Assembly (NCBI RefSeq): GCF_013378055.1
Contig: NZ_CP051130.1
Span: forward strand, 2,482,001 to 2,546,000
Direction of reading: 5' to 3'
DNA from: Parasphingopyxis sp. CP4
GTDB taxonomy: Bacteria > Pseudomonadota > Alphaproteobacteria > Sphingomonadales > Sphingomonadaceae
DNA: 64,000 bases
Numbering within the stretch: position 1 is the first letter of the stretch; the number at the start of each line of letters is the position of its first letter. Shown here in pieces: positions 319 through 5,318 of the stretch. The notes under the pieces were generated by a model that saw nothing but the letters and a program-made list of their open reading frames with translations, was not told where the DNA came from and ran no database searches. A program made the position numbers and the translations under genes.

Positions 319-1779
319 ATGGCCCGTTCACCAGATCTCGATCCTGAGGGCACACGATTGCCGATCAAATTTGATGGGACCTCAAACGGCGAATTTTTTC
401 CGCGCCCACCCACCGTCAACCAGCATTATGCCAACCGGCTTGCCCATGAAGCGGCGAGTGATCATGCCAAGAAACTCGGCATGGGGCGCCGGGCGTTTCT
501 GGTGTCTTCGATGGGGGCGGCGACGACGCTTGCGGCGTGTAACCGCGCCAATCCGAACTCCGGCGGAGTCTACAGCGTCACCGAAGAAGCCGGGTTTGAG
601 CCTGCTGCAGCCGATGCCGCAGTCGGCGGCGATGAGTTCATTCTCGATGTGCAAACCCATTGCGTCGATCCCTCCGCCGCCTGGGCCACCGGGCGCGATG
701 GCGAGATTTGGGAAGCCGCGCTCTCCCGCGCGTTCGGCCAGTCCACGCAATGCACCGACGGCAGCTATGATTGCTATTCCGCCCAGACATTGGCGCGCGA
801 AGTCTATCTCGACAGCGACACGGACGTCGCGGTCGTCTCGGCGCTCTGGGGAACGGCCGAGAGCAATCCCACGCCGATCAGCTATGCCGCCGAAGCGCGC
901 GGTATCATCGAACAGATTGGCGGCGAAGGCGCACGCTGCCTGATCCATGGTGGTGTGCTGCCCAATGATCCCGGCGAGCTTGAAGCGATGGACGAAAAAG
1001 CCGAGGTGCATGGCGTGGATGCGTGGAAAATGTATCCGCAATGGGGCCCTGATGCAGCTGGCTTCTTCCTCGACGAAAGCGATTATGCGGACCGGGTGTT
1101 CGACAATGCCCGGCGGCTCGGCAAGACGGTAATCGCGGTCCATAAGGGCGTGACGCTCTATGGTCTCGATCCGCTCTATTCGAGTCCGCGCGATATGGGG
1201 AATGCGGCGGTCGACAATCCGGACATCACTTTCCTCGTCTATCATTCGGGCTTCCAACCCGGCGTGACCGAAGCGGAATATGATACCAATGGCGGCGGCG
1301 TCGATCGGCTCGTGAAGGCGCATCGCGATGCGGGACTGCGACCGAATGAGGGCAATCTCTACGCCGAAATGGGCTCGCTCTGGCGTTATTTCATGGGCCG
1401 GCCGGACGAGGCCGCCCATGTGATGGGCAAGCTGCTCCAGACTTTTGGCGAGGAACGGATCGTCTGGGGTACAGACTCGATCTGGTATGGCAGCCCGCAG
1501 GACCAGATCCAGGCCTTCCGCGCCTTTGAGATCAGCGCGGAATATCAGGAACGCTTTGGCTATCCGGCGCTGACGCCCGAAGCAAAGCGCAAGATTTTCG
1601 GCCTCAATGGCGCAGCGGTCTATGGCATCGATCCGGCTGAAATTGCGACCCATCAGGCGCTGCCCGAACGGCGCGCGGAATATCGGGCCGAAGCCAATCC
1701 GAGCTTTGCCACCTATGGTCCGAAAACGCGGCGCGAATTTATGGCCAACTGGACTGCGCATGGCGGTCGCCCGGGATAG
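319..1779 (+). CDS. Tat-exported amidohydrolase family protein (amidohydrolase_2)
   Basis: A 486-residue protein of the COG2159 metal-dependent hydrolase/decarboxylase family. AGGAG (307-311) fixes the start. A twin-arginine pair (57-58), hydrophobic stretch and LAAC (71-74) form a Tat lipoprotein-type signal, but about 50 residues precede the RR pair, an unusually long n-region. The barrel carries the family landmarks DVQTHC (degenerate HxH), KMYP, HKG, VYHSGF and WGTDSIWYG (C-terminal metal Asp). Probably anchored outside the inner membrane. Substrate unknown; aromatic or lactone compounds are typical for the family. It stands alone, followed by the lipoprotein trio after 71 bp. Confidence 0.8.
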   Translation: MARSPDLDPEGTRLPIKFDGTSNGEFFPRPPTVNQHYANRLAHEAASDHAKKLGMGRRAFLVSSMGAATTLAACNRANPNSGGVYSVTEEAGFEPAAADAAVGGDEFILDVQTHCVDPSAAWATGRDGEIWEAALSRAFGQSTQCTDGSYDCYSAQTLAREVYLDSDTDVAVVSALWGTAESNPTPISYAAEARGIIEQIGGEGARCLIHGGVLPNDPGELEAMDEKAEVHGVDAWKMYPQWGPDAAGFFLDESDYADRVFDNARRLGKTVIAVHKGVTLYGLDPLYSSPRDMGNAAVDNPDITFLVYHSGFQPGVTEAEYDTNGGGVDRLVKAHRDAGLRPNEGNLYAEMGSLWRYFMGRPDEAAHVMGKLLQTFGEERIVWGTDSIWYGSPQDQIQAFRAFEISAEYQERFGYPALTPEAKRKIFGLNGAAVYGIDPAEIATHQALPERRAEYRAEANPSFATYGPKTRREFMANWTAHGGRPG

Positions 1780-1850
1780 GCGTCGGGATCGCTTGATATC
1801 GGGCGATTTCCTCCCCATTGATAGAGAAACCTATTCCTTGGGAGAATCCC

Positions 1851-2513
1851 GTGCGACCGATCCTCTATATTGTCCTGCCTGCCCTGGCCTTGAGTGCCTG
1901 TGCACGCACCGAAACGCCCGAAGAAGCGCGCGCCGCGGCGCAAGCGGCCCAGGCGGAATATGCGCGTCTCGCCGCCGAAGCGCGGGCCGGCAGCGAAGTA
2001 GAGGAAGTGCTCTCCGGCACCTCTCCGGGCCAGATCGATACCAGCGGATCGGGTGATCTCACGCCGGGCAGCTGGAGCGTTGCGACGATCGATGATGAGC
2101 GTGTCGCACAATTTGGCGAAGAAGGTGAAAACCCGACCATCACCATCGCCTGCGAACTGGGAGGCGGCATCGATATCCGCTTGATCGGCATGCCGCCCCA
2201 GGGTGGATCGGGCACGGTGTACATCAATACGCCCGAAGGCGGCTCGACCTTTACCGCATCGGAAGCTGTGGGCGATGTGCCGGCGGCATATATCTCCATT
2301 CCCGCGGCAGATCCCTTTATCGGCCGATTGATTGGCGGCAACGGCCCTTATTCGATCCGGCTGGGCGGCGATCAACGCGTGGCCTTCCCGGCCGATGATG
2401 TGCTGACCAGTGTTGTCAGCGCCTGTGACCGCCGCGATGCATCCGATGAGATTGCCGATCTGGAAGCAACCATCTCGACCGAAGCGATAACCGAAGAAAG
2501 CCCCGTTGAATGA
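1851..2513 (+). CDS. Lipoprotein of a tandem family, member 1
   Basis: Predicted 220-residue lipoprotein: short basic start, hydrophobic core and LSAC lipobox. I chose GTG at 1851, six bases after GGGAG (1840-1844), over an in-frame TTG at 1818 that would bury the signal. The mature part has an Ala/Glu-rich stretch, then LTPGSW, a Cys in ITIACE, and a second Cys near the end (VVSACD). The next two genes repeat this plan: (L)xxGxW, Cys, then C-terminal Cys, suggesting one disulfide-bonded fold. Its stop overlaps the next start by four bases. Function unknown; no family recognised. Confidence 0.7.
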   Translation: MRPILYIVLPALALSACARTETPEEARAAAQAAQAEYARLAAEARAGSEVEEVLSGTSPGQIDTSGSGDLTPGSWSVATIDDERVAQFGEEGENPTITIACELGGGIDIRLIGMPPQGGSGTVYINTPEGGSTFTASEAVGDVPAAYISIPAADPFIGRLIGGNGPYSIRLGGDQRVAFPADDVLTSVVSACDRRDASDEIADLEATISTEAITEESPVE

Positions 2514-3028
2514 GCCGCTTCGGTTTCAATGGACTGACGGGGGCGGTGGCAACGCTGATCGCGCTAGGCGCCTGTTCGGCTGCGCCGACGCCTGCACCCG
2601 CCCAGGCCGATGCCCAGGCCGAGAGCGATGTCGATTGGCGCGACGTGCCGCTGGCCTCGGGAACCTGGATCTATCGCGAGGATGATCGTGGCTCGCTCGC
2701 GCTCTATGGGGAGCCGGATAGCGATGCAGTTTTCCTCGTGCGCTGTAACATGGCCGATCGGCGGATCTATTTCTCGCTCGCAGGAGCGATGACCAGCGGC
2801 TCGGGCACCATGGCGTTTCAAGCGACCCATGGCGAACGCAGCTATGCGGCCCGCAATGGCTCAGGCGCGTCGCCCTATATTGTTGCGGCCACCGATGCGA
2901 CGGACGATTATCTCGACATGATCGCGTTCAGCCGCGGCCGGATTGCGATTACGGTGAGCGGGCAATCCCTGGTCGCGGTGCCGAACTGGCCTGAGATGAC
3001 GCGCATCTTCGAGGATTGCCGCGCCTGA
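2510..3028 (+). CDS. Lipoprotein of a tandem family, member 2
   Basis: A 172-residue predicted lipoprotein (signal ending LGAC), starting in the ATGA overlap with the preceding gene, so the two are translationally coupled. After a Pro/Ala-rich linker it has LASGTW, a Cys in FLVRCN, a central beta-rich part, and a terminal Cys in FEDCRA. The spacing resembles members 1 and 3. No enzyme motif is visible; a periplasmic or outer-membrane-associated binding role is only a guess. Confidence 0.7.
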   Translation: MSRFGFNGLTGAVATLIALGACSAAPTPAPAQADAQAESDVDWRDVPLASGTWIYREDDRGSLALYGEPDSDAVFLVRCNMADRRIYFSLAGAMTSGSGTMAFQATHGERSYAARNGSGASPYIVAATDATDDYLDMIAFSRGRIAITVSGQSLVAVPNWPEMTRIFEDCRA

Positions 3029-3115
3029 GTGTGAATTTTGAACCACGCGGTTCCGCATAACTGTAATAATTTCGTGCCATGCGCGCGCTTTGCTGATCTT
3101 TCGGAGCGCACAAAG

Positions 3116-3625
3116 ATGACGAAACCTTTCCTGGTCCCACTATGTGTGGCGACACTGCTGGCGGCATGCGGCGGCGAAGCGGGCGATGCGGACATCGCCG
3201 AGCCGGGCACGCTAACCCTGACGCCGGGAGCCTGGGCGGCCAATGACAGTGAGGCTGGCTATGCCAATGAGGATGGCCAGCGCCTTGCAACCCTTCGCTG
3301 CCATCCAGCCACCCAAGAACTGATCCTCGAAATGCCGGGCGGCTTTGCCGATGGTGCGCGCGCGGCGATGCTTATCCGGGCGGGTGATTTCATGCATGGT
3401 GTCGAGCCGGTGGAAGTGCGCGCAAGTGACGCGGGTCCGGTCCGCATCGCGCCCATGCCGATCGACGGCCCGATCAGCCAGGCGATCATCGACTTCCCCG
3501 TCCCGCTGACAATCGAAACCGATGGAGCCGAACCCTTGATGATCGAAGGGGATGCCGTGCTGCAGGGCTTTGTTGCGCTATGTGCGGAAGCGACCGAGAG
3601 TGGTGGCGCGGAGCCCGGGCAATAA
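3116..3625 (+). CDS. Lipoprotein of a tandem family, member 3
   Basis: A 169-residue lipoprotein (signal ending LAAC, then GG). The open frame extends upstream to 3038, but ATG 3116 gives the proper signal peptide and has GGAG at 3103-3106. Mature part: LTPGAW, a Cys in ATLRCH, a C-terminal Cys in FVALCA. It lies 87 bp after member 2, so it could have its own promoter. The shared W/Cys/Cys plan shows descent by tandem duplication with strong divergence. Function unknown. Confidence 0.7.
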   Translation: MTKPFLVPLCVATLLAACGGEAGDADIAEPGTLTLTPGAWAANDSEAGYANEDGQRLATLRCHPATQELILEMPGGFADGARAAMLIRAGDFMHGVEPVEVRASDAGPVRIAPMPIDGPISQAIIDFPVPLTIETDGAEPLMIEGDAVLQGFVALCAEATESGGAEPGQ

Positions 3626-3652
3626 AAAAGCCGCAGGTGGGATCCCCGCGGC
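3624..3652 (-). terminator. Rho-independent terminator, minus strand
   Basis: Read on the minus strand, a GC-rich hairpin (GCCGC...GCGGC, 3630-3652) is followed by six T (3629-3624). The plus strand has no U-tract after the hairpin. It would end a transcript coming leftward, most simply read-through from the MATE gene ending at 3903. Confidence 0.6.
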
Positions 3653-3702
3653 GAGCAAAAGAAGATCGCTCAAATAAAAATGAAAAACAAGGGTTGATCC
3701 AC

Positions 3703-3717
3703 GAGTCGCAATGATTC
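3703..3717. promoter_or_regulatory. Two GANTC methylation sites flanked by DnaA-box-like 9-mers
   Basis: GAGTC (3703-3707) and GATTC (3713-3717) are both GANTC, the CcrM target of alphaproteobacteria. They are overlapped by TGATCCACG (3695-3703) and TGATTCACA (3712-3720), each one mismatch from the Caulobacter DnaA G-box TGATCCACA. Whether either is functional is unknown. Confidence 0.3.
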
Positions 3718-3744
3718 ACACCTGCATATGAGTTCAACAATGCG

Positions 3745-3758
3745 AAAGGAGGTGATCC
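3745..3758 (+). promoter_or_regulatory. Perfect 14-nt complement of the 16S rRNA 3' tail
   Basis: AAAGGAGGTGATCC is the exact complement of the anti-Shine-Dalgarno tail of 16S rRNA (GGATCACCTCCTTT). Its GGAGG lies seven bases before the ATG at 3760. A match this long is rare; most genes in this window have four to six paired bases. On the opposite strand the same bases copy the rRNA tail itself. Confidence 0.6.
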
Positions 3759-3759
3759 G

Positions 3760-3816
3760 ATGTCTCATGGTTCAGTAAAGAGGTCGGTTCAGTCGTTTCG
3801 GAGGATGCGGGGCTAA
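3760..3816 (+). CDS. Possible 18-residue basic peptide
   Basis: ATG with the strongest ribosome binding site in the window opens a short frame, MSHGSVKRSVQSFRRMRG, ending in TAA. The stop codon lies in the loop of a perfect 6-bp hairpin (GCGGGG/CCCCGC, 3807-3824). The peptide would be very basic with no membrane segment. A second small hairpin and a terminator follow, so a short transcript with this one frame is plausible. It could instead be only a ribosome-capturing RNA in the lipoprotein operon 3' end. Not recognised. Confidence 0.35.
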   Translation: MSHGSVKRSVQSFRRMRG

Positions 3817-3866
3817 CACCCCGCCTGAGTTCTCCGGCCGGCACTCCGGCCGCTGACCATGTTTAG

Positions 3867-3898
3867 GGCTGCCAGGCATTGCGCCTGGCGGCCTTTTT
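3867..3898 (+). terminator. Rho-independent terminator, plus strand
   Basis: An 11-bp stem (3867-3877 with 3883-3893, one G-T pair, loop ATTGC) is followed by T5 (3894-3898). It is functional only in the plus direction and sits five bases before the convergent MATE stop. It ends either the lipoprotein operon or a separate small transcript from about 3720. Confidence 0.75.
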
Positions 3899-3902
3899 CA
3901 TG

Positions 3903-5318
3903 TCAGTCGTCTGTACCCGGAGTTGGCGCATAATCGGCCAGCCCGAGCCGTTCGCGCCGCATCCAGCGGGCCGTCAGCAATATTGCAGCAACGCCAAGGC
4001 CAGCAGCAAGGCCAATCCAGATGCCGATACCGTCATAGCCTGCATAAAAGCCAAGGCCGACCGCAACGCCGATACCGACGACCCAATAGCCAAAACCGGC
4101 ATAGAGCATCGGCCAGCGCGTATCCTGTAACCCGCGCAACACGCCGGCACCCACCGCCTGGATACCGTCGGCCAGCTGGAACATCGCGGCGATGAACAGG
4201 AAACTCACGGCGAGATCGAACACCCGGCTGCCCGGCCCGACGCCCTCTTCCATGAACAATCCGACGAGCGGCCCGGGAATTACGATCATGATCAGCGCCA
4301 GCAGGACCGCCGCACCCACGCCCAGGCCATACGCAACGAGGCCAGCAAGGCGGATGCCTTCGCGATCTTCGCGGCCATAATAATAACCAACCCGCACTGT
4401 CGCGGCTTGGGACAGGCCGAGCGGGATCATGAAGGCGACGGCGGCAATCTGCAGCGCGATCGCATGCGCGGCAACGGACTCGCGATCGATCAGTCCCATC
4501 AGGAAGATCGCCGCGCTGAAGATTGTGACTTCGAGCGTCAGCATGATTGCGATCGGAACGCCAAGCTTGGTGATGTGCCACAGCCGCGGCCAGTCGCTGC
4601 GCCAGAAATTGGCGAGCAAGCGATAGCGGCGGAAGGGCTTCAGCCCGGTTGTCACAAAAATCATGCCGAGCATCAGCACCGTGTTCGACATCAGGCTCGC
4701 GATCGCCGCGCCCTCCAGCCCGAGCTCGGGGAAGGGACCAGGCCCGAAGATCAACAACCAATCGGCAATGATGTTGAAGCCGACACCAATAATCGTGACG
4801 ATCACGCCCCAGATCGGCCGTTCAAGCGCCGTCACATAGAGCCGCAACACGACGAAGATAAGAAAGGGCAGGATGCCCCACATGATAATCCGGTTATATA
4901 TGGCGGCTTGGGCGGATATCCCCGGATCCTGGCCGAACAGCAGCATCACCGCCTCGGTATTCCAGATGACAGCCCAGATCGGGATGCAGACCATCACCGA
5001 CAGCCAGATCGCCTGGCGTACGGTTCGCCGGGAATCACGCACCGGATGGACGCGCTTGCCGCGCGCGGCCGCGATCAGCGGGGAAGCCGCCATGACAATG
5101 CCGATGGCGAACATGGCAAAGGCAAAATAGAGATTTACGCCCAGTGCGGACGCGGCGAGCGCATCGACATCATAGCGGCCAAGCATGATAACGTCGGTGG
5201 TGGTAATCGCGTTCTGCGCGAAGTTCCCGAGTATTAACGGTAGGGCGAGCGCAAGGGTGGCGCGAATCTCCGCGCGCAAGGGCGTGCTAGGGCCATCAAG
5301 GGCGATCTTGGTTGCCAT
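3903..5318 (-). CDS. MATE family multidrug/toxin efflux transporter
   Basis: A 471-residue multi-pass inner membrane protein with about 12 hydrophobic segments in two similar halves, the usual MATE size. The N-terminal part (LALPLILGNFAQNAITTTDVIMLGR) and the MAASPLIAAARGKR loop are typical of NorM-like exporters that swap Na+ or H+ for organic cations and toxins. The C-terminal end has a basic tail. It is divergent from the 2OG oxygenase at 5526, with a 207-bp shared upstream region carrying CGCAACA repeats. The substrate cannot be told from sequence. Confidence 0.9.
   Translation of the reverse strand: MATKIALDGPSTPLRAEIRATLALALPLILGNFAQNAITTTDVIMLGRYDVDALAASALGVNLYFAFAMFAIGIVMAASPLIAAARGKRVHPVRDSRRTVRQAIWLSVMVCIPIWAVIWNTEAVMLLFGQDPGISAQAAIYNRIIMWGILPFLIFVVLRLYVTALERPIWGVIVTIIGVGFNIIADWLLIFGPGPFPELGLEGAAIASLMSNTVLMLGMIFVTTGLKPFRRYRLLANFWRSDWPRLWHITKLGVPIAIMLTLEVTIFSAAIFLMGLIDRESVAAHAIALQIAAVAFMIPLGLSQAATVRVGYYYGREDREGIRLAGLVAYGLGVGAAVLLALIMIVIPGPLVGLFMEEGVGPGSRVFDLAVSFLFIAAMFQLADGIQAVGAGVLRGLQDTRWPMLYAGFGYWVVGIGVAVGLGFYAGYDGIGIWIGLAAGLGVAAILLTARWMRRERLGLADYAPTPGTDD

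Follow-up and report, generated by a model that had tools for sequence, protein, structure and literature searches.

The stretch analysed here (the window) comprises 64,000 nucleotides of the chromosome of Parasphingopyxis sp. CP4. Its block 3624-3900 raises the question of why a complete complement of the 16S rRNA tail stands directly in front of a reading frame of only 18 codons. The original prediction offered either a very strongly translated micro-ORF or a ribosome-competing RNA, with the overlapping 3' ends of a lipoprotein and a MATE transcript as a simpler view. In our analysis, the plus strand from 3733 to 3899 looks like a free-standing small-RNA gene. Its product is probably an intrinsically terminated, structured micro-mRNA that serves ribosome capture and translation, the peptide being a by-product.

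A terminator scan of 3500-4000 found two terminators (0.5 expected in shuffled sequences). The one on the plus strand (3865-3899, stem 3865-3895) closes the RNA. The one on the minus strand (3624-3652, stem 3652-3630) is located outside of it and presumably ends the transcript of the MATE gene (Pfam MatE, 3903-5318, minus strand), which is convergent to the RNA. A sigma-70 promoter was not found in the same region (0.1 expected). Two GANTC sites (GAGTC at 3703-3707 and GATTC at 3713-3717) are possibly a methylation-linked promoter element. GANTC is found at most 60 nt upstream of the Shine-Dalgarno (SD) word in 77 of 229 relatives, while 42 are expected from mononucleotide shuffles; we assume a possible link to CcrM/GcrA-type promoters. 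The short leader (TTCAACAATGCG, 3733-3744) contains an AAC; in 210 of 263 relatives, an AAC likewise lies no more than 16 nt ahead of the SD. We infer that transcription starts in this leader, at or near TTCAACA. The extended SD (3745-3758) is separated by one base (G3759) from the ATG (3760-3762), which opens the 18-codon ORF MSHGSVKRSVQSFRRMRG; with its TAA (3814-3816) the ORF spans 3760-3816. The stop codon is in the loop of a hairpin (GCGGGG/CCCCGC, stems 3807-3812/3819-3824) that is apparent from sequence and fold. A further hairpin is apparent from sequence at 3836-3851 (GGCCGG-CACT-CCGGCC, stems 3836-3841/3846-3851). Both terminators, both additional hairpins, the GANTC pair and the frame ending in a hairpin loop had been described in the original prediction and were all recovered. 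Upstream, at 1818-3625, there are three successive small plus-strand ORFs that are secreted- or lipoprotein-like and have no Pfam match. They are perhaps diverged duplicates, and for one of them a coarse clustering of neighbours grouped it with ORFs next to 44 sphingomonad relatives.

The block is conserved beyond chance. When 3624-3900 was compared by blastn with 98 genomes (its own included), the block or its core was matched in 51. Counted by rows, these are 51 of 59 genomes from the same family and none of 39 from other families of the order. In many cases the match is confined to the core, with an identity of 86-96% over about 35-55 bases. A strict core pattern (AAAGGAGGTGRTCCNDTGTC) is present in 70 of the 398 phylum genomes searched, each of them from the class of the window or nearer; by hand count, these are 70 of 135 genomes inside the class and none of 263 outside, and the reversed pattern, used as a control, has no match in the 398 genomes. 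In the order, the strict pattern is present in 53 of 147 genomes (hand count: 53 of the 64 members of its own family carry it, and none of the 83 genomes from elsewhere in the order). A looser core pattern was found in 31 of 385 genomes of the class. Carriers among the 80 stretches listed, out of at least 120, include Sphingomonas, Novosphingobium, Sphingobium, Erythrobacter and Brevundimonas, as well as Methylobacterium, Microvirga, Rhodopseudomonas, Roseomonas and Kaistia. Some genomes have two copies (e.g. G109). Eight plasmid records have a match, all from Azospirillum, and phages gave no match to 3730-3800. Three stretches with the core pattern come from viral contigs (L322-L324); these could be prophage copies or host flanks.

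For the comparisons below, relatives were defined as distinct loci with the SD word (at most three mismatches), which was scored jointly with the start region. This set had 229 members and grew to 263 once later loci were added. Eleven loci yielded no member (nine scored as none, two as weak); three of them (L110, L122 and L125) are true relatives that were excluded by the rule. A comparison with related genomes had been proposed together with the original prediction. It revealed that the SD word, the open frame and a long-range helix (P1, see below) are conserved.

The predicted 14-nt match is indeed present, as AAAGGAGGTGATCC at 3745-3758 on the plus strand, and with G3744 the complement reaches 15 nt. 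The free 3' tail of alphaproteobacterial 16S rRNA, which we take to be GGAUCACCUCCUUUCU, is the sequence against which "perfect complement" is measured, because a 16S gene was not found in the one genome sequence of this organism that was searched. The 14-mer occurs once in the 2.96-Mb genome. Elsewhere in the window, the tail complement has no match longer than 10 nt, and the longest run near other starts is 7 nt (searched in the first third of each of 134 frames of the window, taken from stop to stop with at least 150 codons, some of which are not genes). The exact 14-mer is shared by 228 of the 263 distinct relatives, and 20 have GTGGTCC. A chance SD match is ruled out by the conservation of the block across families. 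Upon folding, the SD core has a mean unpaired value of 0.29-0.35 in three large groups and of 0.13 in a group of five. The core is thus largely paired, which fits a gated start rather than a simple open tail. In another lineage, CACCTCC is found between stop codon and terminator (CACCTCCTT in L105; also in L110 and L321), which is possibly a different way of masking the SD. In Staphylococcus aureus, pairing is also reported to extend past the GGAGG core toward the start, at an estimated 30% or so of initiation sites (PMC13009471); here, in contrast, it is a feature of one near-invariant RNA among relatives in one class.

In a covariance search, the block matches Rfam family RF01867 (CC2171, a Caulobacter sRNA) over the whole model (1-159, window 3736-3895). 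The score is 44.5 bits (E-value 1.4e-8 to 5.1e-8, depending on search size). As this is under the gathering cut-off of 75, the block is a sub-threshold relative and not a member of RF01867; at gathering thresholds, Rfam has no match in the whole window. The elements (leader, SD word, start region, P1 and terminator) follow each other in the same order as in CC2171, relatives that score above the cut-off share this layout, and the long-range helix of the family (CAUNGUC/GACNAUG) is present. The cut-off is passed by 5 of 20 fetched relatives. In 289 genomes of the class, the model has a match in 61, nine of them above the cut-off. Some weak matches are false: of 68 rows in total, 14 were inspected, and eight of these lack the SD word and have only the terminator.

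The window RNA thus appears to be homologous to the CC2171 family, which makes the RNA family a known one. The assumption that such an RNA would be new has to be corrected accordingly. The two differ in that CC2171 is described as an sRNA, while the window RNA is of the MSHG instead of the MSHC type, has an 18-codon ORF and a frame that is under selection, which argues against the non-coding type assigned to RF01867. In the accessible parts of the literature searched, which is mostly open-access, we found no function, ORF or 16S complement attributed to CC2171 (PMC4117421, PMC5596092, PMC11701678, PMC3927594, PMC2873474, PMC10117765, PMC11005374, PMC12559287, PMC13009471). Rfam 15 lists RF01867 with one additional covarying base pair, and a survey of Mesorhizobium huakuii lists one candidate as RF01867. 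Ribosome profiling in Caulobacter revealed that two earlier ncRNAs are translated, but the text does not name them (PMC4117421). Translation of CC2171 may therefore already be on record.

The reading frame is protected from stop codons. None of 165 representatives, chosen to have a 7-mer similarity below 0.3, has an in-frame stop within codons 4-13, whereas 58 and 30 of them have one in frames +1 and +2 and dinucleotide shuffles predict 37.7 (sd 5.2). For codons 4-16, the counts are 7 in frame 0, 66 in frame +1 and 38 in frame +2 (46.5 expected). The short ORFs of the SHG type have their stop at codon 19 in 106 of 122 cases (TAA 62, TGA 31, TAG 13), and TGG is never found at this codon. The start codons of the 263 relatives are ATG (174), GTG (84) and TTG (5), a count that is biased because many relatives were found by patterns that require such starts. 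A CTG start was found in none of 229 relatives under a rule that allowed CTG. L110 and L125, which were found via Rfam and were excluded from the set due to a damaged SD, retain a TTG or ATG start. Across the whole set, the ORF mostly has 14-36 codons. With start codon, SD and open frame all maintained, the sequences point to a translated small ORF.

The encoded peptide was analyzed in those relatives of the SHG type, the type of the sphingomonads, whose ORF has exactly 18 codons (102 relatives, 84 of them distinct in frame 0). In codons 6-18, the synonymous share among differing codons is 14.9%, compared to 22.2% (sd 4.9) in column shuffles. In frame +2 it is 32.5%, which is above that of frame 0. 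Purifying selection on the peptide is thus not seen in the sphingomonads, and the excess of synonymous change that characterizes a gene for a conserved peptide is absent from this group. The 3' base of codon 7 is G in 84 of 89 sequences, yet the codon encodes at least eight different amino acids. In L028, a 4-base insertion ahead of a GGTCGG motif (see below) shifts the frame, and the motif is retained. Sequence comparison indicates that selection keeps the frame open while the peptide is hardly conserved in sphingomonads. The frame test detects selection for an open frame but not its purpose, and a fast-evolving peptide would look alike. What stands of the predicted strongly translated micro-ORF are the conserved frame, start and stop, but not a coding-type conservation of the peptide in sphingomonads.

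Two other lineages have distinct ORFs. In the Azospirillum type (L033, L034 and L276), the same SD and start lead into an ORF for 56-58 amino acids with an N-terminus that resembles a signal peptide by eye. The version from A. thermophilum is annotated as a hypothetical protein (WP_168220487.1). The secreted-looking ORF suggests that the product may matter there, and in this type the micro-mRNA may have become the gene for a secreted small protein. L302-L307 (family f181, genomes of 5.5-7.0 Mb) have ORFs starting with MSSDFVFQ or MSSGFGFQ, which code for 23 amino acids (22 in L307). SEP1 from Sinorhizobium also has 23 amino acids and is reported to have the top translation efficiency among the non-annotated small ORFs. 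The equal length is only suggestive of a kinship to SEP1.

The RNA is predicted to be highly structured. The sequence 3733-3899 folds with a z-score of -4.55, and none of 200 shuffled sequences is equally stable. The fold includes the long-range helix P1, in which codons 3-5 pair with the bases just 5' of the terminator. Its 5' arm is CATGGTTCAG (3766-3775, codons 3-6) and its 3' arm is CTGACCATG (3853-3861), which directly precedes the terminator. P1 is formed in the minimum free energy (MFE) structure of the window RNA and is also part of the RF01867 consensus structure. The arms are CAUGGU/ACCAUG in sphingomonads, CAUUGUC/GACAAUG in the SHC type, and CAUCGC/GCGAUG, CAUUGC/GCAAUG or AGUGA/UCAC in other types. 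RNAalifold proposed P1 unprompted from an alignment of 29 sequences, including that of the window, and 92.6% of the cells are paired. The covariation score is 0.460, compared to 0.180 in shuffles (reached in 0/500) and at most 0.100 when the arms are slid against each other. Two of five measures, pairs with two-sided changes (67/500) and pair types (156/500), are not unusual compared to shuffles. The 29 rows were hand-picked for variety, so that relatives in which P1 is apparent tend to be over-represented; L200, selected as a further row, was dropped, having no terminator by the rule.

The arms were also compared in 156 representatives that had not been picked for P1, with 34 of 229 relatives excluded because of a sequence cut or the lack of a terminator by the rule. 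Own arms score 14.26, permuted ones 10.39 (sd 0.23; 0/500). A partner search that is not anchored at the terminator gives a weak excess (15.9 vs 14.2), with 7% of the relatives above the 95th percentile of the controls. The mean folding probability of P1 is 0.37, 0.61 and 0.29 in the three large groups, and P1 is poor or was not found in some relatives. Relatedness inflates covariation tests of this kind; more weight is carried by the diversity of pair types. On these sequence data, the RNA fold is constrained, with a covarying P1 that links codons 3-5 to the 3' end. Codon-type and structure-type conservation had been proposed as a means of discrimination. The result is mixed: the frame is kept and the RNA helix covaries, but the sphingomonad peptide is not conserved.

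A second pairing (P2) is not part of the RF01867 consensus structure. In P2, a GGATC near or in the ORF can pair with GAUCC of the SD; this GGATC is also found in the 16S tail. At +15 to +80 of the start, GGATC is found in 38 of 112 non-SHG representatives (6.8 expected) and in 6 of 53 of the SHG type (3.6 expected). P2 was tested in 38 representatives of any type that have GGATC, an SD ending in ATCC and a 1-nt gap (a set that overlaps the 112). In 24 of these 38, the base preceding the start codon is complementary to the one preceding GGATC (12.6 expected; 0/5000 label shuffles). All of A-U, G-C, U-A and C-G are represented among these flank pairs, and 14 of the 38 do not fit the base pair. 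The amino acids at the P2 site track the base pair (TWI, ARI, TRI, AGI).

In the window, P2 would pair 3753-3761 with 3783-3791 with one mismatch (SD-side partner GATCCGAT at 3754-3761). In sphingomonads, P2 requires a U-U mismatch. Covariation of P2 was not found in this group (matched 14.89 vs permuted 14.81), and its ORFs are no more complementary to the SD than expected (mean rank p 0.54). At p<=0.05, such complementarity is found in 18 of 52 SHC/SHR-type, 12 of 46 other and 4 of 97 SHG-type relatives. An inner helix (P1b) pairs GGTCGG (3782-3787, codons 8-10) with CCGGCC (3846-3851), and all six pairs are possible in 97 of 118 SHG-type relatives. P1b is also formed in the MFE structure of the window RNA, where it replaces the alternative hairpin at 3836-3851. 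On these predictions, the GGTCGG motif of the window may form P1b and/or serve as P2 partner.

The RNA seems to have a gene of its own because it has a plus-strand terminator and a short leader and because SHG and SHC types have no neighbour in common among the 14 largest neighbour clusters. The clustering is coarse, made from longest open frames with antisense frames included; two clusters join SHG with SSR or SSE. Within the sphingomonads, neighbours are partly common (clusters of 44, 23 and 22 relatives). The ORF downstream of the RNA in the window clusters with only one other and is thus not a general neighbour. In L052, the gene for the small SRP RNA (1691-1787, plus strand) is located about 50 nt after the micro-mRNA on the same strand, and L039 has a tmRNA on the strand of the micro-mRNA, at a distance of about 1.2 kb.

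The simpler view from the original prediction, overlapping lipoprotein and MATE 3' ends with a chance SD, is rejected because the block is conserved as a unit in many families and the downstream gene is not a general neighbour. The minus-strand terminator would allow the MATE transcript to cross the block, but the signals from frame and P1 are on the plus strand. The predicted minus-strand RNA with an anti-SD has no support of its own, as it would correspond to the MATE transcript's 3' end. We consider either of these versions to be hardly tenable. A leader-peptide attenuator that acts in cis on a downstream gene is nearly as improbable. Its usual parts (short ORF, alternative pairings, terminator) are present, and the downstream ORFs of 22 sphingomonad relatives belong to one cluster, being mostly co-directional (first same-strand ORF in 20 of 22 entries). 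As a general reading it is rejected, since an attenuator needs a co-directional downstream gene, while that in the window is convergent, and since none of the 14 largest clusters in this coarse analysis joins SHG and SHC types.

The remaining alternatives concern the role of the ORF. According to one, the RNA is non-coding, either a base-pairing sRNA or an untranslated 30S decoy. This would agree with the typing of RF01867 as an sRNA, the strong fold and the 16S-tail complement, but it leaves unexplained the start codons, the depletion of in-frame stops (0/165) and the use of all three stop types at one codon; we consider it unlikely. Somewhat less doubtful, but still not what we expect, is an ordinary small mRNA, with a fast-evolving micropeptide as product, a strong SD for high output and P1 as a stabilizing fold. 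Frame, start and stop are conserved, the MSH/MSS/MSN beginning is shared, and the longer Azospirillum ORF with an annotated hypothetical protein has the same start. Precedents are the two translated Caulobacter ncRNAs (PMC4117421) and the translated small ORFs on sRNAs of Sinorhizobium meliloti, where 33% of 54 non-annotated translated small ORFs are on annotated sRNAs (PMC10117765). This alternative is weakened by the lack of a synonymous excess in frame 0 in sphingomonads, with frame +2 being higher (0.325). Also, the bases that encode the shared MSHG and TWI residues are under pairing constraint, and wherever a different base is paired, ARI, TRI or AGI takes the place of TWI. The S. meliloti study describes small mRNAs and dual-function sRNAs such as rnTrpL/peTrpL from S. 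meliloti (PMC10117765), with rnTrpL being a leaderless trpE attenuator RNA. These share a short RNA with a short translated ORF, translation being deduced in the case of the window RNA, which differs in that its SD is a full 16S-tail complement and its peptide is not conserved.

We thus favour the micro-mRNA for ribosome capture as stated at the outset. The 30S subunits would dock via their entire 16S tail, which would pair with the RNA, and the docked ribosomes would then translate the 18 codons. In part of the other lineages, the GGAUC mimic of the 16S tail (P2) would pair with the SD end and the start codon. Because P1 (and P2) are inside the initiation region and the ORF, docking and translation would have to open the fold. 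Selection would retain this coupling of ribosome capture to a change in RNA shape. The shape change may determine the stability of the RNA, its titration of free 30S subunits or whether its central part is exposed, and translation may uncover a second pairing function. The combination of a frame that is kept open, a peptide that is not kept and a start that is tied to the 3' end fits ribosome capture with refolding, and the sequences are compatible with the ribosome-competing RNA of the original prediction. It is tempting to speculate, if only with low confidence, that the RNA is a sensor of free ribosomes used throughout the class. The 16S-tail copy in P2 would hide the start behind P1, only free 30S subunits, pairing over 14-15 nt, would displace it, and a brief round of translation, indifferent to the peptide sequence, would reset the shape or lifetime of the RNA.

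An RNA family that is filed as sRNA thus appears, from the genomes compared, to consist of micro-mRNAs in which it is the act of translation, and not the peptide, that is conserved. If so, it would be a natural test system for a maximal SD duplex, for a fold at the start site and for the supply of free ribosomes. Tractable laboratory Alphaproteobacteria would allow direct tests if the micro-mRNA reading is true.
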